Below are positions 1,527-13,418 of a stretch of DNA of 13,584 nt, one piece after another; the first letter of the stretch is position 1; every line of letters starts with the position of its first letter. The stretch covers positions 1 to 13,584 of the forward strand of contig URCB01000045.1 in the NCBI GenBank assembly GCA_900546255.1, written 5' to 3'. This DNA comes from an uncultured Eubacteriales bacterium. Lineage in GTDB: Bacteria > Bacillota > Clostridia > Oscillospirales > Oscillospiraceae. A program made the position numbers and the translations under genes. Below the pieces are notes generated by a model, which was given only the letters and a program-made list of their open reading frames with translations, did not search any database and had not been told where the DNA came from.

Positions 1527-2720
1527 ATGAAACCACTTTCTACCTTAGCCCAGTCCGTCCGGGCATCCACCACCATGGCCATCGACACGCAGTTTAAAAA
1601 GATGCGGGCCGAGGGCATCGACGTCATCGGCTTCAGCGTGGGGGAGCCCGATTTCCCCACCCCGGAACGCATCAAGCAGGCGGGCATCCGGGCCATTGAG
1701 GCAGACCAGACCAAGTACACCCCCACCCCCGGCACCCTGGCCGTCCGCCAGGCGGTGTGCCAGCGGCTGGCGGCGGACTGGGGCCTGCACTACACCACCG
1801 ACGAGGTGGTGGTCACCGGCGGCGGCAAGCCGGTGCTGTACACCGCCCTGAAGGCCCTGGTGAACCCGGGGGACGAGGTCATCCTCCCTGCGCCCTACTG
1901 GGTGAGTTACTATGAACTGATTCAAATGGTGGGGGGCACCCCCGTGGTGGTGGAGACCACCGAGGAGAACGGGTTTAACCTCACCCCCCAGCAGCTCCGC
2001 CAGGCCATCACCCCCAAGACCAAGGCGCTGATCCTCAACAGCCCCTCCAACCCCACGGGGATGATTTACAGCCGCCAGCACCTGGAGGACCTGGCCCAGG
2101 TGTGCCTGGAGGCCGACCTCTACGTCATTGCCGATGAGATGTACAGCAAGCTCATCTTCGATGGAAAGGAGTTCGTCTCCTTCCCCACCCTGTCGGAGGC
2201 GGTGAAGGCCCACACCATCCTGGTCAACGGGGCCTCCAAGACCTACGCCATGACGGGCTGGCGCATCGGCTTTGCCGCAGCCAGCCGGGAGATCATCCAG
2301 GTGATGAACAACTACCTCAGCCACAGCCTCTCCGGCACCTGCTCCATCGCCCAGGCGGCGGCAGCGGAGGCCTTCGGCGGCCCCCAGGAGGAGATTGAGG
2401 CCATGCGCCAGGCCTTTGAGACCCGGCGGAACTACCTCTATGACCGGATGTCCCAGATCCCGGGGGTCCACCCCGTCCGGTCGGAGGCCACCTTCTATAT
2501 GCTGATGAACCTCTCCCAGCTCATCGGCAAAACCCTGTACGGGGTGGAGATTCACGATGCCGACGACTTTGCCAACGTCTTCCTGAAGGAGGGCCTGGTG
2601 GCGGTGGTGCCCTGCACAGGCTTTGGGGCGCCCCACTATGTCCGGTGGTCCTTCGCCGTGTCCATGGAGAACATCAAGGAGGGCATGGACCGGCTGGAGA
2701 AGTTCTTGAAAAACGCCTGA
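1527..2720 (+). CDS. Class I/II pyridoxal-phosphate aminotransferase, aspartate aminotransferase-like (subgroup Ib type)
   Basis: This is a 397-residue cytosolic PLP enzyme, probably transferring the amino group between aspartate and 2-oxoglutarate or a related amino acid pair. Visible features are the N-terminal GEPDF (39-43), the GGGKPVL segment (98-104) at the PLP phosphate, PYWVSY (123-128) with the aromatic residue that stacks on PLP, NSPSNPTG (171-178) with Asn175, ADEMY (202-206) with Asp203 and Tyr206, the Schiff-base lysine in GASKTY (Lys238), Arg246, and Arg374 in YVRWSF, which binds the substrate carboxylate. The ATG at 1527 is preferred because GGGAGG stands at 1511-1516; an in-frame TTG at 1509 overlaps that site. 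The PYWVSY signature fits the Bacillus/Thermus type aspartate aminotransferases, but related enzymes act on other amino acids, so the substrate is an inference. It has its own promoter and is not linked to a biosynthetic operon here. Confidence 0.92.
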   Translation: MKPLSTLAQSVRASTTMAIDTQFKKMRAEGIDVIGFSVGEPDFPTPERIKQAGIRAIEADQTKYTPTPGTLAVRQAVCQRLAADWGLHYTTDEVVVTGGGKPVLYTALKALVNPGDEVILPAPYWVSYYELIQMVGGTPVVVETTEENGFNLTPQQLRQAITPKTKALILNSPSNPTGMIYSRQHLEDLAQVCLEADLYVIADEMYSKLIFDGKEFVSFPTLSEAVKAHTILVNGASKTYAMTGWRIGFAAASREIIQVMNNYLSHSLSGTCSIAQAAAAEAFGGPQEEIEAMRQAFETRRNYLYDRMSQIPGVHPVRSEATFYMLMNLSQLIGKTLYGVEIHDADDFANVFLKEGLVAVVPCTGFGAPHYVRWSFAVSMENIKEGMDRLEKFLKNA

Positions 2721-2773
2721 GTTTTTTCCGTAACCGAGGATTGCCCCAGGAACCTGGTTTGCCTGGGACAGGG

Positions 2774-2812
2774 AACCGGCCCGGCGCTGTATCCTACAGC
2801 GCCGGGCCGGTT
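2774..2812. terminator. Perfect 18-bp hairpin between convergent genes
   Basis: Arms 2774-2791 (AACCGGCCCGGCGCTGTA) and 2795-2812 are perfectly complementary with a TCC loop. The hairpin sits between the ends of the aminotransferase (+) and the flavoprotein (-). Neither strand has a T-tract after it, so it is not a textbook intrinsic terminator. A role as a bidirectional transcription stop or an RNA 3'-end protector is inferred from position. Confidence 0.7.
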
Positions 2813-2840
2813 CGTTCAGAAAAGAAAAGGGAAAGCGGCG

Positions 2841-4463
2841 TTACGGGGCCAGCAGGTCCAACAGCTGGGGCAGGGACTTTTTTCCAAAGACCACCTGCTG
2901 GCCGTGGTTGACCACCAGGCAGGGCACGCTCATCACCTGGTAGCGGTCCCGCAGGGCGGGGAAGTGGTTGAGGTCATAGGCCTGGGCGGTGACCTGGCCG
3001 CTGGCTGCCGCCAAACGCTGGGCGGCGGTCACCAGGTCGGGACACATGGTGCAGGAGAGGGAGACCAGGATCTGCAGGTCCACCGGTGCCCGGAGGGCCT
3101 GGATGGCCTGTTCCGTGGCCCCGTCCAGGGCCTGCCCTGGGCCGGCGGCGTTGTACAGCCCCAGGACGAAGGCGGTGAACTCATGGCCCCCCGGCACGCC
3201 GTGGAAGGCCAAGCCCGTCCAGCTGCCATCGGGGCGGCACACCCGGACGCAGGGGGGCTCGGGGTCCTGCCCGGTGGTGGTGAGGGTGAGCTGGTCGGTG
3301 AGCTGGCACAGGGCCTGCATGTATGCCTCCAGCTCCCGGGAGAGGGGGGTGCCGTCCAGGGTGAGCTCCAGCACCAGGGACCCGGTCATCCGGCGGAACA
3401 CCGTCTGGAGTTGGGCCAGCATCTCCGGCGGAAAGAGGGCGTCCCCCGGTTCTGCAGGGGGAGCCCCCTCCGCCGGGGCAGGGGGGAGGACCTCCGGCGG
3501 GGTAGGGCGCAGGCCGGTGCGGGCCTGGGCGGCCGCGGCGTACTTTTCCAGCTCGGTGGCGGCCAGCGCGCCGTCCCCTACGGCGGTGACCACCTGGCGC
3601 AGAGGCTTTTGGCACACGTCCCCGGCGGCATAGAGGCCGTCGGCGGAGGTCCGCTGCCCCCGGTCGGTGAGAACATACCCCTGGTCATCCAGGTCGGCCA
3701 CGCCCTGGAGCAGTTCGGTGGCCGGTTCGTACCCGGCAAAGACGAAGAGGCCGAAGGTCTCCCCCGCCGGGGGGCGGTACTCGGTGACCTGGCCGGTCTG
3801 GGTGTTGCGGTAGCGCAGCAGGCGGAGGGCGTCGTCCCCCTCCACCCCCTCCACCTGGGTGTGGGGGAGGACGGTGATCCTCTCGTGGTCCCGGGCGGCC
3901 TGGGCCACGGAGGGGGCGCAGGAGAAGTCCGCGCCCCGGATGAGGATGGTCACATGACGGGCGTACTTGGTGAGGAACACGGCCTCCTCCGCGGCGGCAA
4001 AGCCGCCGCCCACCACGAACACATCTTTGCCGGTGAAAAACTCCCCGTCGCACGTGGCGCAGTAGGCCACGCCCCGGCCCTGGAAGGCCGCCTCCCCGGC
4101 AAAGCCCACTTTTCTGGGGTGGGCCCCGGTGGCCCACAGGACCCCGAAGCAGGACAGCGCCCCCCGGGTGGTGCGGACGGTTTTGACGTCCCCGGTCAGG
4201 TCCAGCCCCGTGACCTGGGCCAGCAGGAATTCCGCCCCGAAGGACTGGGCCTGCCGGCGCATGGTCTCGGTGAGTTCGGCGCCGCTGGCCTGGGCCACAC
4301 CGGGGTAGTTGACCACCTGGTGGGTGATGGTGACTTGGCCGCCGAAGTGGTCCTGCTCTACGATGACCACCCGGTACCGGGCCCGGGCCAAATAGAGCCC
4401 GGCGGTGAGGCCGGCGGGGCCGCCCCCCACGATGACCACGTCATAGAAGGTCTTGGGGTCCAT
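2841..4463 (-). CDS. AhpF-type peroxiredoxin reductase with reversed domain order (TrxB-like flavoprotein plus C-terminal AhpF-N-type module)
   Basis: This 540-residue cytosolic flavoprotein should pass electrons from NAD(P)H through FAD and two CxxC pairs to the peroxiredoxin encoded just upstream. Residues 1-310 form a thioredoxin-reductase core: FAD site GGGPAG (13-18), redox CATC (135-138), nucleotide site VGGG (151-154) and the FAD motif YAAGDV (278-283). A Pro/Ala-rich linker (about 311-343) leads to a double thioredoxin-fold module like the AhpF N-terminal domain, with GGHEFT (425-430), a second redox pair SLSCTMCP (Cys471, Cys474) and the cis-proline segment MSVP (511-514). In classical AhpF this module is at the N-terminus; here it is at the C-terminus. 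The ATG at 4463 shares one base with the ahpC stop (TGATG), indicating translational coupling; a longer in-frame start at 4532 lies inside ahpC and would add 23 residues before the FAD domain, so it is rejected. Function is confident; NADH or NADPH preference cannot be read. Confidence 0.92.
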   Translation of the reverse strand: MDPKTFYDVVIVGGGPAGLTAGLYLARARYRVVIVEQDHFGGQVTITHQVVNYPGVAQASGAELTETMRRQAQSFGAEFLLAQVTGLDLTGDVKTVRTTRGALSCFGVLWATGAHPRKVGFAGEAAFQGRGVAYCATCDGEFFTGKDVFVVGGGFAAAEEAVFLTKYARHVTILIRGADFSCAPSVAQAARDHERITVLPHTQVEGVEGDDALRLLRYRNTQTGQVTEYRPPAGETFGLFVFAGYEPATELLQGVADLDDQGYVLTDRGQRTSADGLYAAGDVCQKPLRQVVTAVGDGALAATELEKYAAAAQARTGLRPTPPEVLPPAPAEGAPPAEPGDALFPPEMLAQLQTVFRRMTGSLVLELTLDGTPLSRELEAYMQALCQLTDQLTLTTTGQDPEPPCVRVCRPDGSWTGLAFHGVPGGHEFTAFVLGLYNAAGPGQALDGATEQAIQALRAPVDLQILVSLSCTMCPDLVTAAQRLAAASGQVTAQAYDLNHFPALRDRYQVMSVPCLVVNHGQQVVFGKKSLPQLLDLLAP

Positions 4464-5188: not shown

Positions 5189-7588
5189 TCAGGAGACCTG
5201 CTCGAACTGGCTGTTGTACAGCTCGGCGTAGAAGCCCCCCTGCTGGAGGAGCTGGTCGTGGGTGCCGCTCTCCACGATGTCCCCCTCCCGCAGGACCAGG
5301 ATGAGGTCTGCGTTCTTGATGGTGGACAGGCGGTGGGCGATGACGAAGGAGGTGCGGTGCTCCATGAGCTGGTCCATGGCCGCCTGGATCTTCTGCTCGG
5401 TGCGGGTGTCCACGGAGGAGGTGGCCTCGTCCAGGATGAGCATGGGCTTGTCGGCGATCATGGCCCGGGCGATGGTGAGCTGCTGCTTCTGCCCCTGGGA
5501 GAGGCTCACCTGGTCGTTGAGGATGGTGTCGTACCCCTTGGGCAGGGTGCGGATGAAGTGGTGCAGGCCCACAGCCTTGCAGGCTTTCTCCATGGTCTCG
5601 TCACTGACCCCGGGGGTGCAGTAGACCAGGTTTTCCCGGACGGTGCCCTCGAAGAGCCAGGTGTCCTGGAGGACCATGCAGAAGAGGCTGTGCACCGCCT
5701 GGCGGCTGAGGTCCTTGGTGGAGATGCCGTCGATGAGGATCTCCCCCTGCTGGATCTCGTGGAAGCGCATGAGCAGGTTGACCAGGGTGGTCTTGCCCGC
5801 CCCGGTGGGGCCCACGATGGCGATCTTCTGCCCCGGCTGGGCCACGGCGGAGAAGTCGTGGATGACGGTGGTGTCGGTGTCCTCATAGCCGAAGGTCACG
5901 TGGCGGAACTCCACCTTGCCCTGGACCTGGGGCAGGGCGGTGGGCTTGCCGGCCTCGTCCTCCATCTCCTGGGCCTCCAGGAACTCGAAGACCCGCTCCC
6001 CCGCGGCGGCGGCGGACTGGAGGGACTGGACCGCCTGGGCGATCTGGGACAGGGGCTGGGTGAAGTACCGGACGTACAGCATGAAGGCCACGATGACCCC
6101 GAAGCTGATGGCGTCGTTGAGGGCCATGGCGCCCCCCACCACGCAGACGGCCACATAGCCGAAGTTGCCGATGAAGCTCATAATGGGCATCATCAAGCCG
6201 GACAGGCACTGGGCCTTGAAGTTGCTGCTGCAGAGGTTGGCGTTCATCTCGTCGAACTGGGCCTGGGCGTGGGCCTCCCCATTGTAGGCCTTCACCACGG
6301 TGTGGCCGGTGTAGATCTCCTCGATGTGGCCGTTGAGCTGGCCCAGGTGCTTTTGCTGGCGGCGGAAGTACTTCTGGCTCTTGCCCATGATGGCGAACAT
6401 CAGGGCAAAGCCCAGCAGGCTGGCCACCACCGCGGTGAGGGTCATCCAGACGTTGGTGAGGAGCATCATCACCAGGCTGCCCAGAAGGAGGACCACGGCG
6501 GAGAGCAGGCCGCCGATGCTCTGGTTCAGGGACTGGCCGATGGTGTCCACGTCGTTGGTCACCCGGGAGAGGACGTCTCCGGTGGTGGTGCGGTTATAGT
6601 ACCACATGGGCAGGCGGTTGATCTTGTGGGAGATGTCCGAGCGCATCTCCTTGGACACCCGCTGGGTGATGGTGGCCATGATCCACCCCTGCACGGCGGA
6701 GAGGACGTAGCTGATGGCGTACAGGGCCACCAGGAACAGGCCGATGCCCACCACGGTGTCCATGTCGACGGAGGGTTTGACCAGGTTGTATACCGAGGCC
6801 GGCAGGCTGTCGATGGCGGCCAGGAGGGCGTTGGTGTCGCTGCCGTCCAGGTGGGTGAACAGATCCAGCATGGCCTGCTGGTCCGCCCCGGAGAGGGTGG
6901 TGCCTTCCACATCCACGTCAGTGAACAGGGCGGCCTGGGCCTCTGCCGGCAGGTCTGTGAGGACGCCGGCCAGGGCGGCGGGGTCCTCAGAATCCAGCTG
7001 GCCCAGGGTGGTCAGCAGCTGGACCTGGTCCTGGGGGGCCAGGGTGACGCCGTGGACGGTCACCGGGGAGAGGAGGGCCTCCAGCATCCCCTCCGGCAGG
7101 GAGAGGAGGAGGGCCTGCTGCTGGCTGGGGTCTGTGGCCCCCGCCAGGCCGGCCAGGGTCTCCTGGAAGGCCTGCTTCTCGGCGGGGGTGAAGTCCGGGG
7201 AGGCCAGGATGGCCCCCGCCTTCTGGGTGAGCTGGGCCTGGTCCCCCAGGCCGGCGGAGGTGGCCTGGGTCACGGCCTCTAAGTTGTCGGTGAGGGTTTG
7301 GGAGACGGTGTCGGTGACGGTCTCCAGCATTGCCTGGTCGGGGGCGATGCCGGCGGTGATGGTGTCGGTCATGTCGGAGAGTTGATCCGGCCCTGCCAGG
7401 GTGAGCACCGTGCCCAGCACGGCGCAGAGGAGGGCCACCACCAGGGCCACCCGGTACCGGCGGCAGTAGCCCAGCAGCTTTTTCCAGGTGCCGATGAGGT
7501 CCTTGGCCTTTTCGCCCCCCCGGGCCATGCCCATGGGGCCCCCGTGGCCCCGGCGAGGGGGTGCGGATGTGGTGCGCGGTTCTTCCAT
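5189..7588 (-). CDS. ABC exporter half-transporter with large repeated extracellular insert (catalytic-site subunit)
   Basis: This 799-residue protein fuses a type-IV exporter membrane domain to a nucleotide-binding domain. It should pair with the 585-residue protein encoded immediately upstream to expel a substrate, probably a drug or peptide. Nucleotide-binding features are Walker A GPTGAGKT (593-600), Q-loop Gln641, signature LSQGQ (696-700), Walker B with catalytic Glu721 (LILDE) and H-loop His752. The first membrane helix is about 46-65 and the second about 277-300; the roughly 205 residues between them form an Ala/Asp/Thr-rich, cysteine-free extracytoplasmic insert containing three ~49-residue repeats (about 129-175, 176-224, 225-272). 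Ordinary exporters have a short loop here. The ATG at 7588 overlaps the upstream stop by one base (TAATG) and has AGGAGG 10 bases upstream. Residues 1-30 are basic and Gly-rich. The substrate cannot be read. Confidence 0.95.
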   Translation of the reverse strand: MEEPRTTSAPPRRGHGGPMGMARGGEKAKDLIGTWKKLLGYCRRYRVALVVALLCAVLGTVLTLAGPDQLSDMTDTITAGIAPDQAMLETVTDTVSQTLTDNLEAVTQATSAGLGDQAQLTQKAGAILASPDFTPAEKQAFQETLAGLAGATDPSQQQALLLSLPEGMLEALLSPVTVHGVTLAPQDQVQLLTTLGQLDSEDPAALAGVLTDLPAEAQAALFTDVDVEGTTLSGADQQAMLDLFTHLDGSDTNALLAAIDSLPASVYNLVKPSVDMDTVVGIGLFLVALYAISYVLSAVQGWIMATITQRVSKEMRSDISHKINRLPMWYYNRTTTGDVLSRVTNDVDTIGQSLNQSIGGLLSAVVLLLGSLVMMLLTNVWMTLTAVVASLLGFALMFAIMGKSQKYFRRQQKHLGQLNGHIEEIYTGHTVVKAYNGEAHAQAQFDEMNANLCSSNFKAQCLSGLMMPIMSFIGNFGYVAVCVVGGAMALNDAISFGVIVAFMLYVRYFTQPLSQIAQAVQSLQSAAAAGERVFEFLEAQEMEDEAGKPTALPQVQGKVEFRHVTFGYEDTDTTVIHDFSAVAQPGQKIAIVGPTGAGKTTLVNLLMRFHEIQQGEILIDGISTKDLSRQAVHSLFCMVLQDTWLFEGTVRENLVYCTPGVSDETMEKACKAVGLHHFIRTLPKGYDTILNDQVSLSQGQKQQLTIARAMIADKPMLILDEATSSVDTRTEQKIQAAMDQLMEHRTSFVIAHRLSTIKNADLILVLREGDIVESGTHDQLLQQGGFYAELYNSQFEQVS

Positions 7589-9970: not shown

Positions 9971-10870
9971 TCAGGGCCGCCCCTGGCCGGGGGCGGCCTG
10001 GTCCAGCACCACCTGGAGCAGGTCCCGGGCCAGGGGGGAGAGGACCTTCTCCCGGTGCCACACCACCCGGAACTGCCGGCGGAACACCAGGCCCTCCACG
10101 GCCACCTCCCCCACCTTGCCCTGGGCGATGGCCTCGGCGGCCACCTGGCGGGAGAGGACCGCCAGCCCCAGCCCTGCCGCCGCGGCCTGGAGCAGGGCGG
10201 TGTTGCTCACCGACTCCCACCGGGGGTGGGGGGTGAGGCCGGCGGCCTCCATCACCCGGTCAAACTCCTCCCGGGTGCCGCTGCCCTTCTCCCGGAGGAG
10301 GAGGGGCTGCCGGACAAAGGCATCCGGGGTCAGGGCGGTACCCGGGGGCACCGGCCCGTGGGGGGCGGCCAGGACGGCCAGGTGGTCCTCCTGGTAGGCC
10401 TCCCACTGGAGGGCGGGGGCGTGGGGGAGGCCCTCCATCAGGGCCAGGTCCAGGCGGTGGTCCAGCAGGGCCTCCTCCAGGGCTTTGGAGGGGGCCACGG
10501 TGACCTGGACCTCCACCTCCGGCCGCTGGGCGGCGAAGGCCCGCAGGGCCTGGGGCAGGAAGCGGGAGCCGATGGTCAGGCTGGCCCCCATGGTCAGCTT
10601 GCCCACCTGGTCCCAGTGGCGCAGCTCCCGGTCCAGGTCCTGGAACAGGCCGGCGATCCGCTGGCCATAGGTCTGGAACCGCCGGCCCTGCTGGGTGAGC
10701 ACCAGCCGACGGCCCACCCGGTCAAACAGGGGCACGCCGTAGTGGGTCTCCAGCTCCCGGATGGCGGCGCTGACGGCGGGCTGGGTCAGGTGGAGCTGCT
10801 GGGCGGCCTTGGTGGCGCTGCACCCGCAGGCGCACACCGCCAGAAAGATGTGAATGTGGCGAATGGTCAT
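9971..10870 (-). CDS. LysR-family transcriptional regulator, divergent from chromate transporter genes
   Basis: This 299-residue regulator has the standard LysR layout. The N-terminal winged helix covers residues 1-60, with KAAQQLHLTQPAVSAAIREL (21-40) as the helix-turn-helix and LFDRVGRRLVLT (about 46-57) as the wing. The effector-binding domain covers about 88-295 and includes LLREKGSGTREEF, a segment common in CysB/CbbR-like members. Three cysteines are packed at 13, 15 and 17 (CACGC), before the recognition helices. The ATG at 10870 is chosen because MTIRHIHIF is the normal LysR N-terminus and a GGGAAGG site precedes it; an upstream in-frame start at 10969 would run through the promoter region. 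Being divergent from the chrA pair with shared promoter DNA, it most likely controls those genes. Its effector is unknown. Confidence 0.93.
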   Translation of the reverse strand: MTIRHIHIFLAVCACGCSATKAAQQLHLTQPAVSAAIRELETHYGVPLFDRVGRRLVLTQQGRRFQTYGQRIAGLFQDLDRELRHWDQVGKLTMGASLTIGSRFLPQALRAFAAQRPEVEVQVTVAPSKALEEALLDHRLDLALMEGLPHAPALQWEAYQEDHLAVLAAPHGPVPPGTALTPDAFVRQPLLLREKGSGTREEFDRVMEAAGLTPHPRWESVSNTALLQAAAAGLGLAVLSRQVAAEAIAQGKVGEVAVEGLVFRRQFRVVWHREKVLSPLARDLLQVVLDQAAPGQGRP

Positions 10871-10909
10871 GGAAATGCCTTCCCTTATATGAATTTTGTT
10901 ATGATTCTG

Positions 10910-10986: not shown

Positions 10987-11577
10987 TTGGCAGAACCTTT
11001 GGAAAAACCCCGGTACCGGGCGCTGTTCTGGTCCACCTTTCGCCTGAGCGCCTGCACCTTTGGGGGGGGCTACGTCATTGTGCCCCTGATGCGGAAAACC
11101 TTTGTAGAGAAACTCCACTGGATCGACGAGGGGGAGATGATGGACTTCACCGCCATCGCCCAGTCCACCCCCGGGGCCATGGCGGTGAACGCCTCCATCC
11201 TGGTGGGGTACCGGATGGCGGGGGTCCCCGGGGCCCTGGTGACGGTGGGGGGGACGGTGCTGCCTCCGTTGATCATCATCTCGGTGATCTCCCTGTTTTA
11301 CCAGGCCTTTCGGGCCAACCCCATTGTGAACCTGGCCATGACCGGCATGCTGGCCGGGGTGGCGGCGGTGCTGTGCGACGTGGTGTACACCATGGCCCGG
11401 TCGGTCCTCCGGCCGGGGAAGTGGGTGCTGCCGGCGGTGCTGATGGGCCTCTCCTTCCTGGCGGTGGCGGTGGGAGGGTGGAACCCCATCCTGGTCCTCC
11501 TCCTCTGCGGCGGGGTGGGGGCGGTCCAGCTCCTGGCCCCCCGGCGGAAGGGGAAGAGAGGGGGGCAGCAGCCGTGA
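10987..11577 (+). CDS. chrA: Short chromate-transporter (CHR) family protein, first subunit
   Basis: This 196-residue membrane protein is one CHR domain with the family motifs FGGGYVIVPL (25-34) and QSTPGAMAVN (59-68), followed by several hydrophobic helices and a basic C-terminus. Bacterial CHR proteins export chromate. Short single-domain members come as adjacent pairs and are thought to act as heterodimers with opposite membrane orientation. The start is TTG at 10987: GGGAGGG at 10973-10979 lies 7 bases upstream. The ATG at 10968 is in another frame, does not yield this protein, and starts before the ribosome binding site. The gene overlaps the next by 4 bases (GTGA). The real substrate in a gut anaerobe is uncertain and may be another oxyanion. 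Confidence 0.92.
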   Translation: MAEPLEKPRYRALFWSTFRLSACTFGGGYVIVPLMRKTFVEKLHWIDEGEMMDFTAIAQSTPGAMAVNASILVGYRMAGVPGALVTVGGTVLPPLIIISVISLFYQAFRANPIVNLAMTGMLAGVAAVLCDVVYTMARSVLRPGKWVLPAVLMGLSFLAVAVGGWNPILVLLLCGGVGAVQLLAPRRKGKRGGQQP

Positions 11578-12134
11578 TCTACCTGGAACTGCTGTGGAGT
11601 TTTATCCAGATCGGCCTGTTCAGCATCGGCGGGGGATACGCCGCCATGCCCCTCATCCAGCACCAGGTGGTGGACCTGCACCCCTGGCTGACCATGACCC
11701 AGTTTGCCGACGTCATCGCCATCGCGGAGATGACCCCCGGCCCCATCGCCCTCAACGCCGCCACCTTTGTGGGGATCCAGGTGGCGGGCCTCCCCGGGGC
11801 CCTGGTGGCCACGGCGGGGAGCGTGCTGCCCTCCTGCGTCATCGTGCTGCTGTTGGCCTTCCTGTACTATAAGTTCAAGGGGTTCTCGGTGATCCAGGGG
11901 ATCCTGGCAGGGGTACGGCCGGCGGTGGTGGCTATGATCGCCTCGGCGGGGGTGTCCATGGTGCTGCTGGCGGTGTACGGCACCCGGACCCTGCCGGCGG
12001 ACCCCACGGCCGTCCAATGGACGGCGGTGGCCATCCTGGCCGGGGGGCTGGTGGTGCTGCGGAAGTGGAAGGTGAATCCGGTTTGGGTGATCCTCGGCTC
12101 GGGCCTTGTGGGAATCCTAGTGGGAATTTTGTAA
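11574..12134 (+). CDS. chrA: Short chromate-transporter (CHR) family protein, second subunit
   Basis: This 186-residue membrane protein is the partner of the preceding gene, with the same CHR motifs: FSIGGGYAAMPLIQ (16-29) and EMTPGPIALN (52-61). Hydrophobic stretches follow at about 75-97, 107-135, 149-162 and 170-186. The GTG at 11574 is chosen because it opens the conserved IYLELLWSF start and gives the 4-base GTGA overlap with the upstream stop; a purine-rich stretch (GAGAGGGGGG) precedes it. The reading frame is open far upstream, but that part lacks any family similarity and only shadows the first subunit. The stop codon lies within one arm of a 15-bp inverted repeat (12125-12139). Confidence 0.92.
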   Translation: MIYLELLWSFIQIGLFSIGGGYAAMPLIQHQVVDLHPWLTMTQFADVIAIAEMTPGPIALNAATFVGIQVAGLPGALVATAGSVLPSCVIVLLLAFLYYKFKGFSVIQGILAGVRPAVVAMIASAGVSMVLLAVYGTRTLPADPTAVQWTAVAILAGGLVVLRKWKVNPVWVILGSGLVGILVGIL

Positions 12135-12221
12135 GGGGCGAGGGGGGTTGGCGCTTCGTTCGGGGCGGTAGCGTACGGGGGTGTCAGAGATTCTGTTTGG
12201 GTTGAGGCCCCTTACAAAATT
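12125..12221. repeat. Long-range 15-bp inverted repeat spanning the chrA stop codon
   Basis: AATTTTGTAAGGGGC (12125-12139) is repeated as its exact reverse complement at 12207-12221, with 67 bases between. The first arm contains the chrA stop codon (12132-12134). It could be a large mRNA stem or the ends of a small ~97-bp inserted element. No target duplication is evident. Confidence 0.8.
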
Positions 12222-12251
12222 GGGGGATGCACCCCGAACCATACCCATAAC

Positions 12252-12282
12252 AAAAGGAGAGAGCCTGGCTCTCTCCTTTTTT
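12252..12282 (+). terminator. Intrinsic terminator of the chrA operon
   Basis: A 12-bp perfect stem (AAAAGGAGAGAG, 12252-12263, with 12269-12280) and a 5-base CCTGG loop is followed by T residues. It lies 118 bases after the chrA stop, so the inverted repeat at 12125-12221 would be transcribed. Confidence 0.93.
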
Positions 12283-12446
12283 GTGCAACTTTTTTTCGGG
12301 GAACGTGTACGTTTTCGTGCAAGTATGGACCGGGTGCCCGGGTAGGGTGAGGGGGCTGGAAGTGGGTCCAGCGCCGGAAAACTGGGGGGGCCAGCCGGGA
12401 AAAGGGCCGCCGGGGGAATCCTCCGCCCAGGCGGGGCGCGGAGACG
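12283..12446. other. GC-rich non-coding spacer
   Basis: No credible gene was found; open frames here have no plausible composition or ribosome binding site. Small dyads are present: AACGT-GT-ACGTT at about 12304-12315, CCGGG-TG-CCCGG near 12329-12342 and CTCCGC with GCGGAG (12421-12443). It leads directly into the DnaA-box block. Confidence 0.6.
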
Positions 12447-12473
12447 TTTTCCACACCCAGTTATCCACACCCG

Positions 12474-12548
12474 GGGCCAGATTTGACCCCGGTCCGGATT
12501 TGGCCTACCCCGGTCCGAATCTGGCCTGGGGGGGGTCCGAATTTGGCC
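12474..12548 (+). repeat. Four iteron-like direct repeats, consensus GGTCCGRATTTGGCC
   Basis: Units begin at 12474 (GGGCCAGATTTGACC, the most diverged), 12491 (GGTCCGGATTTGGCC), 12512 (GGTCCGAATCTGGCC) and 12534 (GGTCCGAATTTGGCC). The last three are spaced by 21 and 22 bases, about two helical turns, so a protein would bind all on the same DNA face. Each unit has partial dyad symmetry (GGYC...GRCC). Confidence 0.85.
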
Positions 12549-12550
12549 CC

Positions 12551-12600
12551 CTATTCAAGTAATTTAACCAAGTGAGTAAATCAATCTATATGCTTATAGG
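12551..12600. other. AT-rich stretch, possible DNA unwinding element
   Basis: 36 of 50 bases are A or T. It includes the small dyad CTATA-TGCT-TATAG (12586-12599) and is bordered on the right by a G-rich cluster (12599-12608). On the minus strand the order is DnaA box, DnaA box, C-rich cluster, AT-rich DNA, similar to the basal unwinding arrangement of Bacillus oriC. A clear DnaA-trio is not seen. Confidence 0.5.
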
Positions 12601-12644
12601 GGGCGGGGATTGGCCTGTGAAAAAGTCGGAGAATGTGGAAAACT

Positions 12645-13418
12645 TCACAGCCGCCGGAACAGCTCCATGAGGGGCACCATCAGGCAGTGGGGGATGAACT
12701 TGGCCGCCACCCGGTGCAGGGTGCACACGATGCCCGGGGTGGCCACCCACAGGTTCACCGCGCTGGCGGCCAGGGAGAGGGCCACCACCGACTTGCTCCG
12801 GGAGGCCAGGGGGAAGTGGTGGAACTGGCCGGCCTTGCCCTCCTGGGCCAGGGGGATGAACTCCGTGTCCTTCACCCAGTAGGGGCACACGGCGGTGACG
12901 TGGATGCCCTTGGGGAGGAGCTCGTGGTGCAGGGTCTTGGCGTAGCTGTGGAGGAAGGCCTTGGTGGCGGCGTACACCCCCAGCCCCGGCATGGGCTGGA
13001 AGGCGGCGGTGGAGCAGATCTCCAGCACCCGGCTGCCCCGGGTGAGGTAGGGCAGGCACAGGCCGGTGACCCCCACGGCAGCCCAGCAGTTGAGGTCGAT
13101 CATGGCCAGGTTGTCCCCGGGGTCCACGGCGGCGATGTTGCCCATCTTGCCAAACCCCGCCGCGCACACCAGGCGGGTGACCACGGGCTGCTCCTGGGCC
13201 AGCAGGTCCCGGAGGGTGTCCAGGGACTCCTGCCGGGTCAGGTCCAGGGGGATGGCCCGGACGGGGCAGGCGGCGAGGGTGGACAGGGCCTCCAGCCGGT
13301 CCTTCCGCCGGGCGATGGCCCAGATCTCCTGGACCTTGGGGTCCCGGCTGAGCTGGCGGACGTACTCCTGCCCCAGCCCGCTGGAGGCCCCGGTGATCAG
13401 AGCGATGGATTGTGACAT
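12645..13418 (-). CDS. Short-chain dehydrogenase/reductase (classical SDR, NAD(P)-dependent)
   Basis: This 257-residue oxidoreductase shows the classical SDR fold: cofactor motif TGASSGLG (9-16), DL (59-60), a CAAG variant of NNAG (85-88), Asn110, catalytic Ser136 (ICSTA), and Tyr149/Lys153 in YAATK. ARRKDR (36-41) after the second strand suggests NADPH use. The last ~45 residues are hydrophobic with scattered basic residues and end in FRRL; they may contact the membrane or a lipid-like substrate. The ATG at 13418 is chosen because AGGAGGTG (13432-13425) lies 6 bases upstream; a longer in-frame start at 13499 adds a Pro-rich low-complexity segment and lacks such a site. The gene stands alone, its 3' end next to a DnaA box, with no clear terminator or promoter. 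The substrate is unknown. Confidence 0.93.
   Translation of the reverse strand: MSQSIALITGASSGLGQEYVRQLSRDPKVQEIWAIARRKDRLEALSTLAACPVRAIPLDLTRQESLDTLRDLLAQEQPVVTRLVCAAGFGKMGNIAAVDPGDNLAMIDLNCWAAVGVTGLCLPYLTRGSRVLEICSTAAFQPMPGLGVYAATKAFLHSYAKTLHHELLPKGIHVTAVCPYWVKDTEFIPLAQEGKAGQFHHFPLASRSKSVVALSLAASAVNLWVATPGIVCTLHRVAAKFIPHCLMVPLMELFRRL

Follow-up and report, generated by a model that had tools for sequence, protein, structure and literature searches.

Titration sites of the datA type in Escherichia coli are clusters of DnaA boxes away from oriC. In the available part of the RepA_N literature, most iterons are said to be direct, semi-palindromic repeats whose inverted arms meet at an A-tract, and how replication is started by RepA_N initiators is stated to be unknown (PMC7145576). 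The plasmid pSK41 carries four Rep boxes inside rep, and the C-terminal domain of its Rep is essential; according to the same partial source, DnaA boxes were not detected in staphylococcal plasmids (PMC5703833). For short RepA_N proteins, which were left aside, a different job was considered probable (PMC5357655, available in part). Among chromosomal origins, oriC2 of C. difficile has a layout of DnaA box plus trio behind dnaA (PMC7561715, available in part).

The site described here lies in a window of 13,584 nucleotides, the whole stretch of DNA that was analysed, and is quite probably an orphan (rep-less) copy of a RepA_N-type origin in the chromosome of an Evtepia-like gut bacterium. With RepA_N theta replicons (pSK41, pTZ2162 and, with its RepA, the Vibrio cholerae satellite PLE), as covered in the partial sources, its family shares a RepA_N-domain initiator and, in the Evtepia copies linked to a rep gene, an origin in or at rep. 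It differs from them in that the Evtepia origin stands at the 3′ end of the gene or just behind it, and in that the window copy has no rep gene. The four Rep boxes of pSK41 are matched by four direct repeats in the window, which were judged by eye to be semi-palindromic with arms around an A-tract (PMC5703833, PMC7145576, both in part). Unlike the Rep of pSK41, the Evtepia Reps have no C-terminal domain, and unlike the staphylococcal plasmids, the site has exact DnaA boxes beside its iterons (PMC5703833, in part).

Short RepA_N proteins of integrative and mobilizable elements are, as far as the available text goes, truncated and chromosomal like the Evtepia Reps (PMC5357655), whereas the genes tested or read beside the Evtepia copies were ordinary chromosomal ones, with no integrase or relaxase noticed among them. 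A group of RepA_N genes encoding 137 aa has, as here, DnaA boxes close to the end of the gene and, after it, an AT-rich stretch. Clostridial oriC2 (dnaA-dnaN) shares with the site exact DnaA boxes next to an unwinding candidate; in contrast to it, the window site has RepA_N-type repeats and is multicopy, no DnaA-trio was recognised there by eye, and neither dnaA nor dnaN was among the window genes compared with databases. From datA, the site is set apart by its iterons, its AT-rich stretch and its relation to a rep gene.

Genomes and sequence model

Relatives were found through the SDR protein of the window, giving four Evtepia loci: L001 in Ca. Evtepia faecavium (G001), L002 in Clostridiales SUG277 (G002), L003 in the gut commensal isolate E. 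gabavorous KLE1738 (G003) and L004 in Ca. E. faecigallinarum (G004). Contigs of these genomes are given as C numbers. A sequence model (R1) was built from six copies of the element, which match it by construction, and was run over 16 genomes of the genus and 300 genomes of the family.

Organization of the site in the window

The original prediction of an origin-like cluster held in its parts. It had claimed four convergent DnaA boxes, two per strand; in an exact-motif scan, TTWTNCACA was found four times in the window, always within the 196-bp site (Table 1), with the + strand pair on the left and the − strand pair on the right pointing inward. Dinucleotide-preserving shuffles of the whole window (1000) contained a mean of 0.17 exact boxes per window, and two exact boxes at most 200 bp apart occurred in 0/1000. 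The outer boxes form an 18-nt inverted repeat (83%) ending the 196-bp core. The four iteron-like repeats that had been noted were recovered as 15-nt direct repeats between the two box pairs, the other three being 80, 87 and 93% identical to the reference repeat (12491). All four follow the pattern GG-N-CC / RRATTY / GG-N-CC, as judged by eye. The reported 50 bp at 72% A/T was confirmed at 12550-12599, against 34% A+T in the window overall. Comparable stretches exist elsewhere: among the first 60 matches listed, other 50-bp windows of at least 70% A+T start at 1399-1466 and 10867-10886, the highest reaching 76% (start 10880). Taken alone, the AT-rich stretch of the site is high but no exception in the window.

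The conserved unit, ~12280-12644 (~365 bp), is longer than the 12447..12642 first noted. As in the window, a hairpin apparently stands before the left end in the C70 copy of G001 and in the rep-linked L002 and L003 (by eye). Reading frames of the stretch that stands in place of the rep coding sequence are not maintained from copy to copy.

Table 1. Features of the putative orphan origin (positions are those of the window).
Feature	Position	Strand	Remarks
Hairpin, T-runs on both strands, terminator-like in both directions	12252..12280		Directly before the conserved left end
Leader	12280..12354	+	Homologous DNA lies before the start codon of rep in G002 and G003
Stretch in place of the rep coding sequence	12355..12446	+	No rep sequence recognised
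DnaA box TTTTCCACA	12447..12455	+	9/9 identical to G001 C70 and C53
DnaA box TTATCCACA (consensus)	12461..12469	+	9/9 identical to G001 C70 and C53
Iteron 1 GGGCCAGATTTGACC	12474..12488	+	Repeat search
Iteron 2 GGTCCGGATTTGGCC	12491..12505	+	Repeat search
Iteron 3 GGTCCGAATCTGGCC	12512..12526	+	Repeat search
Iteron 4 GGTCCGAATTTGGCC	12534..12548	+	Repeat search
AT-rich stretch, candidate unwinding element	12549..12598		Composition kept, sequence poorly conserved
G-rich run GGGGGCGGGGA after the AT-rich stretch	12599..12609		Largely conserved in the three G001 copies
DnaA box TTTTTCACA	12616..12624	-	7/9 in C70, 8/9 in C53
DnaA box TTTTCCACA, right end of the element, 2 bases from the SDR stop codon	12634..12642	-	

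The position between convergent genes was likewise confirmed, with a + strand frame ending at 12134 and the SDR-like gene on the − strand ending at 12645. The former is presumably the second gene of a chromate-transporter pair, of which the preceding frame (10987-11577) alone was covered by the database comparison. No dnaA, dnaN, RepA_N gene or transposase was found among the window genes compared with databases. Further away, the − strand frame 5189-7588 encodes an ABC exporter of 799 aa with a long extra stretch in its N-terminal part; among the matches listed, nearly all alignments with known exporters begin only at residues 262-320.

A dispersed family in Evtepia-like genomes

A lack of conservation of the boxes and repeats in relatives had been named in advance among the refuting conditions. 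The comparison was run, conservation was found and the feature survived. In L001, the arrangement after the SDR gene is conserved in full, and three of its four boxes are exact; the next gene differs from that of the window, and we take it to encode a ZIP-type metal transporter. The element is present at three places in G001, all with different flanks. The C70 copy adjoins the orthologous SDR gene, the C53 copy lies between an amino-acid-kinase family gene (pyrH-like) and a ribD-like gene, and the C71 copy begins directly after the stop codon of a RepA_N gene. The window, C70 and C53 align over ~365 bp, and C71 over the right half only.

Within the 16 genus genomes, R1 detected three copies that were not in the model: G002:C9 (rep-less, E 9.9e-26), G003:C31 (rep-linked, E 3.6e-26) and, weakly, G004:C162 (rep-linked, E 1.5e-6). 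Over the 300 family genomes, 16 matched at E ≤0.01, strongly in G001 and G003 only, the remaining matches having E 9.6e-5 or weaker. One rep-linked copy is accompanied by two rep-less copies in G001 and by one each in G002 and G003; for G004, one weak rep-linked copy and no rep-less copy of comparable strength was found. Of the rep-less copies, the one in G002 is flanked by an ACT-domain gene and a PadR-family gene, and the one in G003 by dapH-like and dapF-like genes that converge on it. Both G002 copies and G003:C31 have an exact DnaA box at one side only. By homology, the window site belongs to a small family of copies scattered over Evtepia-like chromosomes.

In a second lineage (L181:1415-1560, G009:C154), an origin-like site without rep was seen that is of another type; here, a DnaA box, TTTTTGCA repeats and an AT-rich stretch are flanked by a sensor-kinase-like gene on one side and yabP on the other. 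This copy was picked up through its AT-rich part (E 5.8e-10). A search for further copies of this type matched 3 of the 300 family genomes, one with the known rep-linked copy in G006 and two with short, weak matches.

Rep-linked copies and their initiator

G001, G002, G003 and, weakly, G004 each have one copy adjoining a short RepA_N gene (PF06970), either at its 3′ end or immediately after it. The products encoded at the rep-linked copies score over the PF06970 cut-off; for C71 of G001, where the gene is truncated by the contig end, the match to Pfam RepA_N has E 3.6e-10, over the cut-off. The genes of G002 and G003 occupy L002:4588-5226 (-) and L003:2329-2961 (-). In both, rep overlaps at its 3′ end with the left DnaA box and the iterons, and its stop codon is followed by the AT-rich stretch. 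The gene order sodium/hydrogen-exchanger family gene, rep, SDR was found on one contig in G002, G003 and G004, with ~1.5 kb of other sequence separating rep from SDR in G004; the exchanger gene was not found in G001. RepA_N matches were obtained in 8 of 16 genus genomes and in 48 of 200 family genomes, 46 of them over the cut-off.

The Evtepia Reps are ~200 aa long and end with or before the origin-coded part, leaving no room for a C-terminal domain, the lack of which was judged from length and Pfam matches only. Since Rep is short and without the domain needed in pSK41, the modules may not replicate at all. The N-terminus of a homologous Rep, P0022 (198 aa, 320 member sequences), matches structures of the RepA N-terminal domain (4PTA, 5KBJ, 4PQL, 4PT7). 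Its C-terminus is LSTPQAESGPGPDLADPRPNLAGGGAESGPLFQ, and one frame over the window iterons reads LSTPGARFDPGPDLAYPGPNLAWGGSEFGPLFK, which points to P0022 as a likely candidate for the rep of the window's species or of a near one. RepA_N-type relatives of P0022 were found on 351 plasmid records by tblastn, with <60% identity among the 20 matches listed. Four RepA_N entries near the E. gabavorous one (P0012, P0019, P0024 and P0036) were read as its frame-shifted versions, the shifts being due to mutation or sequencing error.

Construction and conservation of the putative orphan

The left part of the window matches the rep leader of G002/G003 over 24 nt at 96% (E 1.4e-5) and over 35 nt at 83% (E 4.7e-5), and the 16 nt at the left end (TTTGTGCAACTTTTTT) are identical in all four aligned orphan copies. 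In G002:C9, the leader is joined to the origin without rep, as in the window. The ~600 bp of rep coding sequence are replaced by 92 bp in the window, by a somewhat longer stretch in the G001 copies and by a shorter one in G002:C9, with no recognisable rep sequence. The AT-rich stretch and the leader persist in the four aligned rep-less copies; the rep-less copy G003:C2 is without leader (by eye). Because of the leader homology and the lack of rep sequence between leader and origin, the orphan looks like a leader plus origin from which rep was lost. A small coding gene inside the orphan was also considered, and was dropped as one frame common to the window and C70 is absent from C53.

Between the window and C70, identity amounts to 34/36 in the boxes, 51/60 in the iterons, 56/74 in the leader and 29/52 in the AT-rich stretch (counted over 12549-12600). 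The element as a whole is 76% identical, which is less than the agreement at four-fold sites of the SDR gene (73/83); this suggests selection at the level of the motifs only, the element as a whole not being slow.

Alternative explanations

Of the three readings offered at the outset, two concern replication directly. That the site is the main origin of the chromosome, uncoupled from dnaA, is extremely unlikely: it would agree with the DnaA boxes, the AT-rich stretch and the fact that the SDR gene is followed by a copy in G001, G002 and G003, but the site is multicopy, with several dispersed copies in G001, and is linked to RepA_N genes. Following inspection of the dnaA loci of G001-G005, an oriC-like site was recognised behind dnaA in G001-G004, made up of a TTTTCCACA box and then a DnaA-trio sequence such as CCCCTACTACTACCACTACGAC; the gene after it we take to be dnaN. 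A chromosomal origin in the window is therefore not supported and was set aside. GC skew is positive on both sides of the site, in the window and at G003:C2, without sign change of the base skew at either, on short contigs; this test is soft, since the skew near dnaA in G003, used as control, is itself weak. Box and TACTACTACCACTACGAC-type trios behind dnaA in G001-G004 are arranged as in C. difficile oriC2 (PMC7561715, in part). The origin of an integrated or extrachromosomal element, the other reading, is best supported, by the homologous copies at or just behind RepA_N genes in relatives. A current plasmid was rejected, the single plasmid match of 47 nt being judged chance, and so was a current phage, with no phage match and no relative in viral contigs.

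The third reading was a DnaA-titrating locus. A datA-like titration or control site for DnaA (or Rep), origin-derived and now only a putative protein sink, would fit two observations: the boxes are better conserved than any other part when the window is compared with G001 C70/C53, and G001, G002 and G003 each combine a single rep-linked copy with one or two rep-less ones. A pure sink, however, needs neither the AT-rich stretch nor the leader, both of which are retained in the four aligned rep-less copies, and as a separate explanation it is improbable. As a present role, titration possibly overlaps with the orphan-origin explanation. Dispersed copies at several genomic positions, the sharp left end and the inverted repeat formed by the outer boxes at the ends of the 196-bp core could also point to a non-autonomous mobile repeat carrying origin-like sequence and moved by a putative recombinase. 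This is very unlikely, as by eye no inverted repeat or target duplication was noticed at the ends of the 365-bp unit in the aligned copies, no transposase was among the window genes compared, and the rep-linked copies hold one position (exchanger, rep, SDR) in G002, G003 and G004. Repeats of an IS end were discarded on the same lack of a transposase among these genes and on the repeats following rep genes. A structured non-coding RNA or regulatory leader would account for a leader kept without its gene and for the bidirectional terminator beside it, but the origin explains repeats and DnaA boxes, no promoter-like site was found in 12100-12700, and two Rfam searches gave no family at gathering score (one match, 17.9 bits against a gathering score of 45), so that this explanation is as improbable as that of oriC.

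In the dnaA loci L101-L104 (G001, G004, G002 and G003), exact boxes and trio sequence were seen downstream of dnaA, and no exact DnaA box upstream (in L101 over ~390 bases only). L105 (G005, ~2700-3450) contains no exact DnaA box within the locus, and the gene after its dnaA is presumably mutL, not dnaN. Clostridial oriC1 boxes were counted with one mismatch allowed (PMC7561715, in part), which is not a strict contrast to an exact-box scan. In E. gabavorous, a long, apparently non-coding repeat was seen by eye at two places, after the SDR gene and before dnaA (L003 ~1790-2100 and L104 ~800-1300).

Proposed function

Preference for an orphan RepA_N-type origin follows from the leader being joined to the origin with rep missing, while relatives hold rep-linked copies. 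The window site probably acts, or acted in the past, as RepA_N origins do; since its initiator gene is absent, it does not qualify as a replicon. A short Rep, acting in trans, and DnaA probably bind the orphan origin. Given a short Rep without C-terminal domain and exact boxes beside the origin, we infer that Rep may bind the iterons and that DnaA may do the opening and loading. In this model, a short RepA_N protein encoded at another place of the genome would bind the four semi-palindromic iterons as a dimer, and DnaA would bind the inward-facing boxes. Together, they could open the AT-rich stretch, with DnaA perhaps taking over recruitment of the primosome from the C-terminal (DnaD-like) domain that is missing.

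Within the orphan-origin reading, a slowly decaying relic is tentatively placed first as present role. A putative binding site for Rep and DnaA that does not fire, serving titration or pairing, is possible and comes next, and an origin that fires occasionally is rather unlikely. It is also improbable that one short RepA_N protein, having lost its helicase-loading domain, and DnaA act together on several dispersed origins. Such a multi-site system of Evtepia-like chromosomes, built from a domesticated plasmid replicon, would provide additional chromosomal origins that depend on DnaA, or else a brake on DnaA under the control of Rep. The orphans raise the question whether several plasmid-type origins can reside in one chromosome without being fired, and of what maintains them.

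DnaA boxes behind short and long RepA_N genes

In total, 43 loci were surveyed, comprising all 13 RepA_N matches of the genus and those 30 family matches for which a locus was obtained; 25 genes were short, 16 were long, and two, cut by contig ends, were assigned to neither group. An exact box at most 600 bp behind the N-terminal domain was present in 16/25 short and 3/16 long genes. Box counts were 22 for the short group (~0.8 expected) and 4 for the long group (~0.6 expected), expectations being taken from shuffles of non-overlapping base pairs, a rough null. As 21/25 short and 3/16 long loci had been inspected, with boxes visible, before the idea was counted, this is not an independent test; among the loci not inspected beforehand, a box was found in 1/4 short and 1/13 long, which decides nothing. 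One box of the 137-aa group, 89 bases ahead of the stop codon, falls on a conserved GCGKP motif of the protein. Between L189 and L190, the protein and DNA shown are identical. Due to such relatedness and to the protein-coded box, the 25 short loci are not mutually independent. The counts suggest that DnaA boxes are associated with short more than with long RepA_N genes, an association mostly noticed before it was counted. It suggests that the short Rep may recognise the origin and host DnaA open it.

GTACG repeats, followed by an AT-rich stretch, were observed behind the short RepA_N genes of L187, L189, L190, L191, L198 and L204 (137 aa, in some cases within an extended open frame) and of L197. 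Where the sequence reaches far enough, the gene starting after this AT-rich stretch presumably encodes a MobA-type relaxase.
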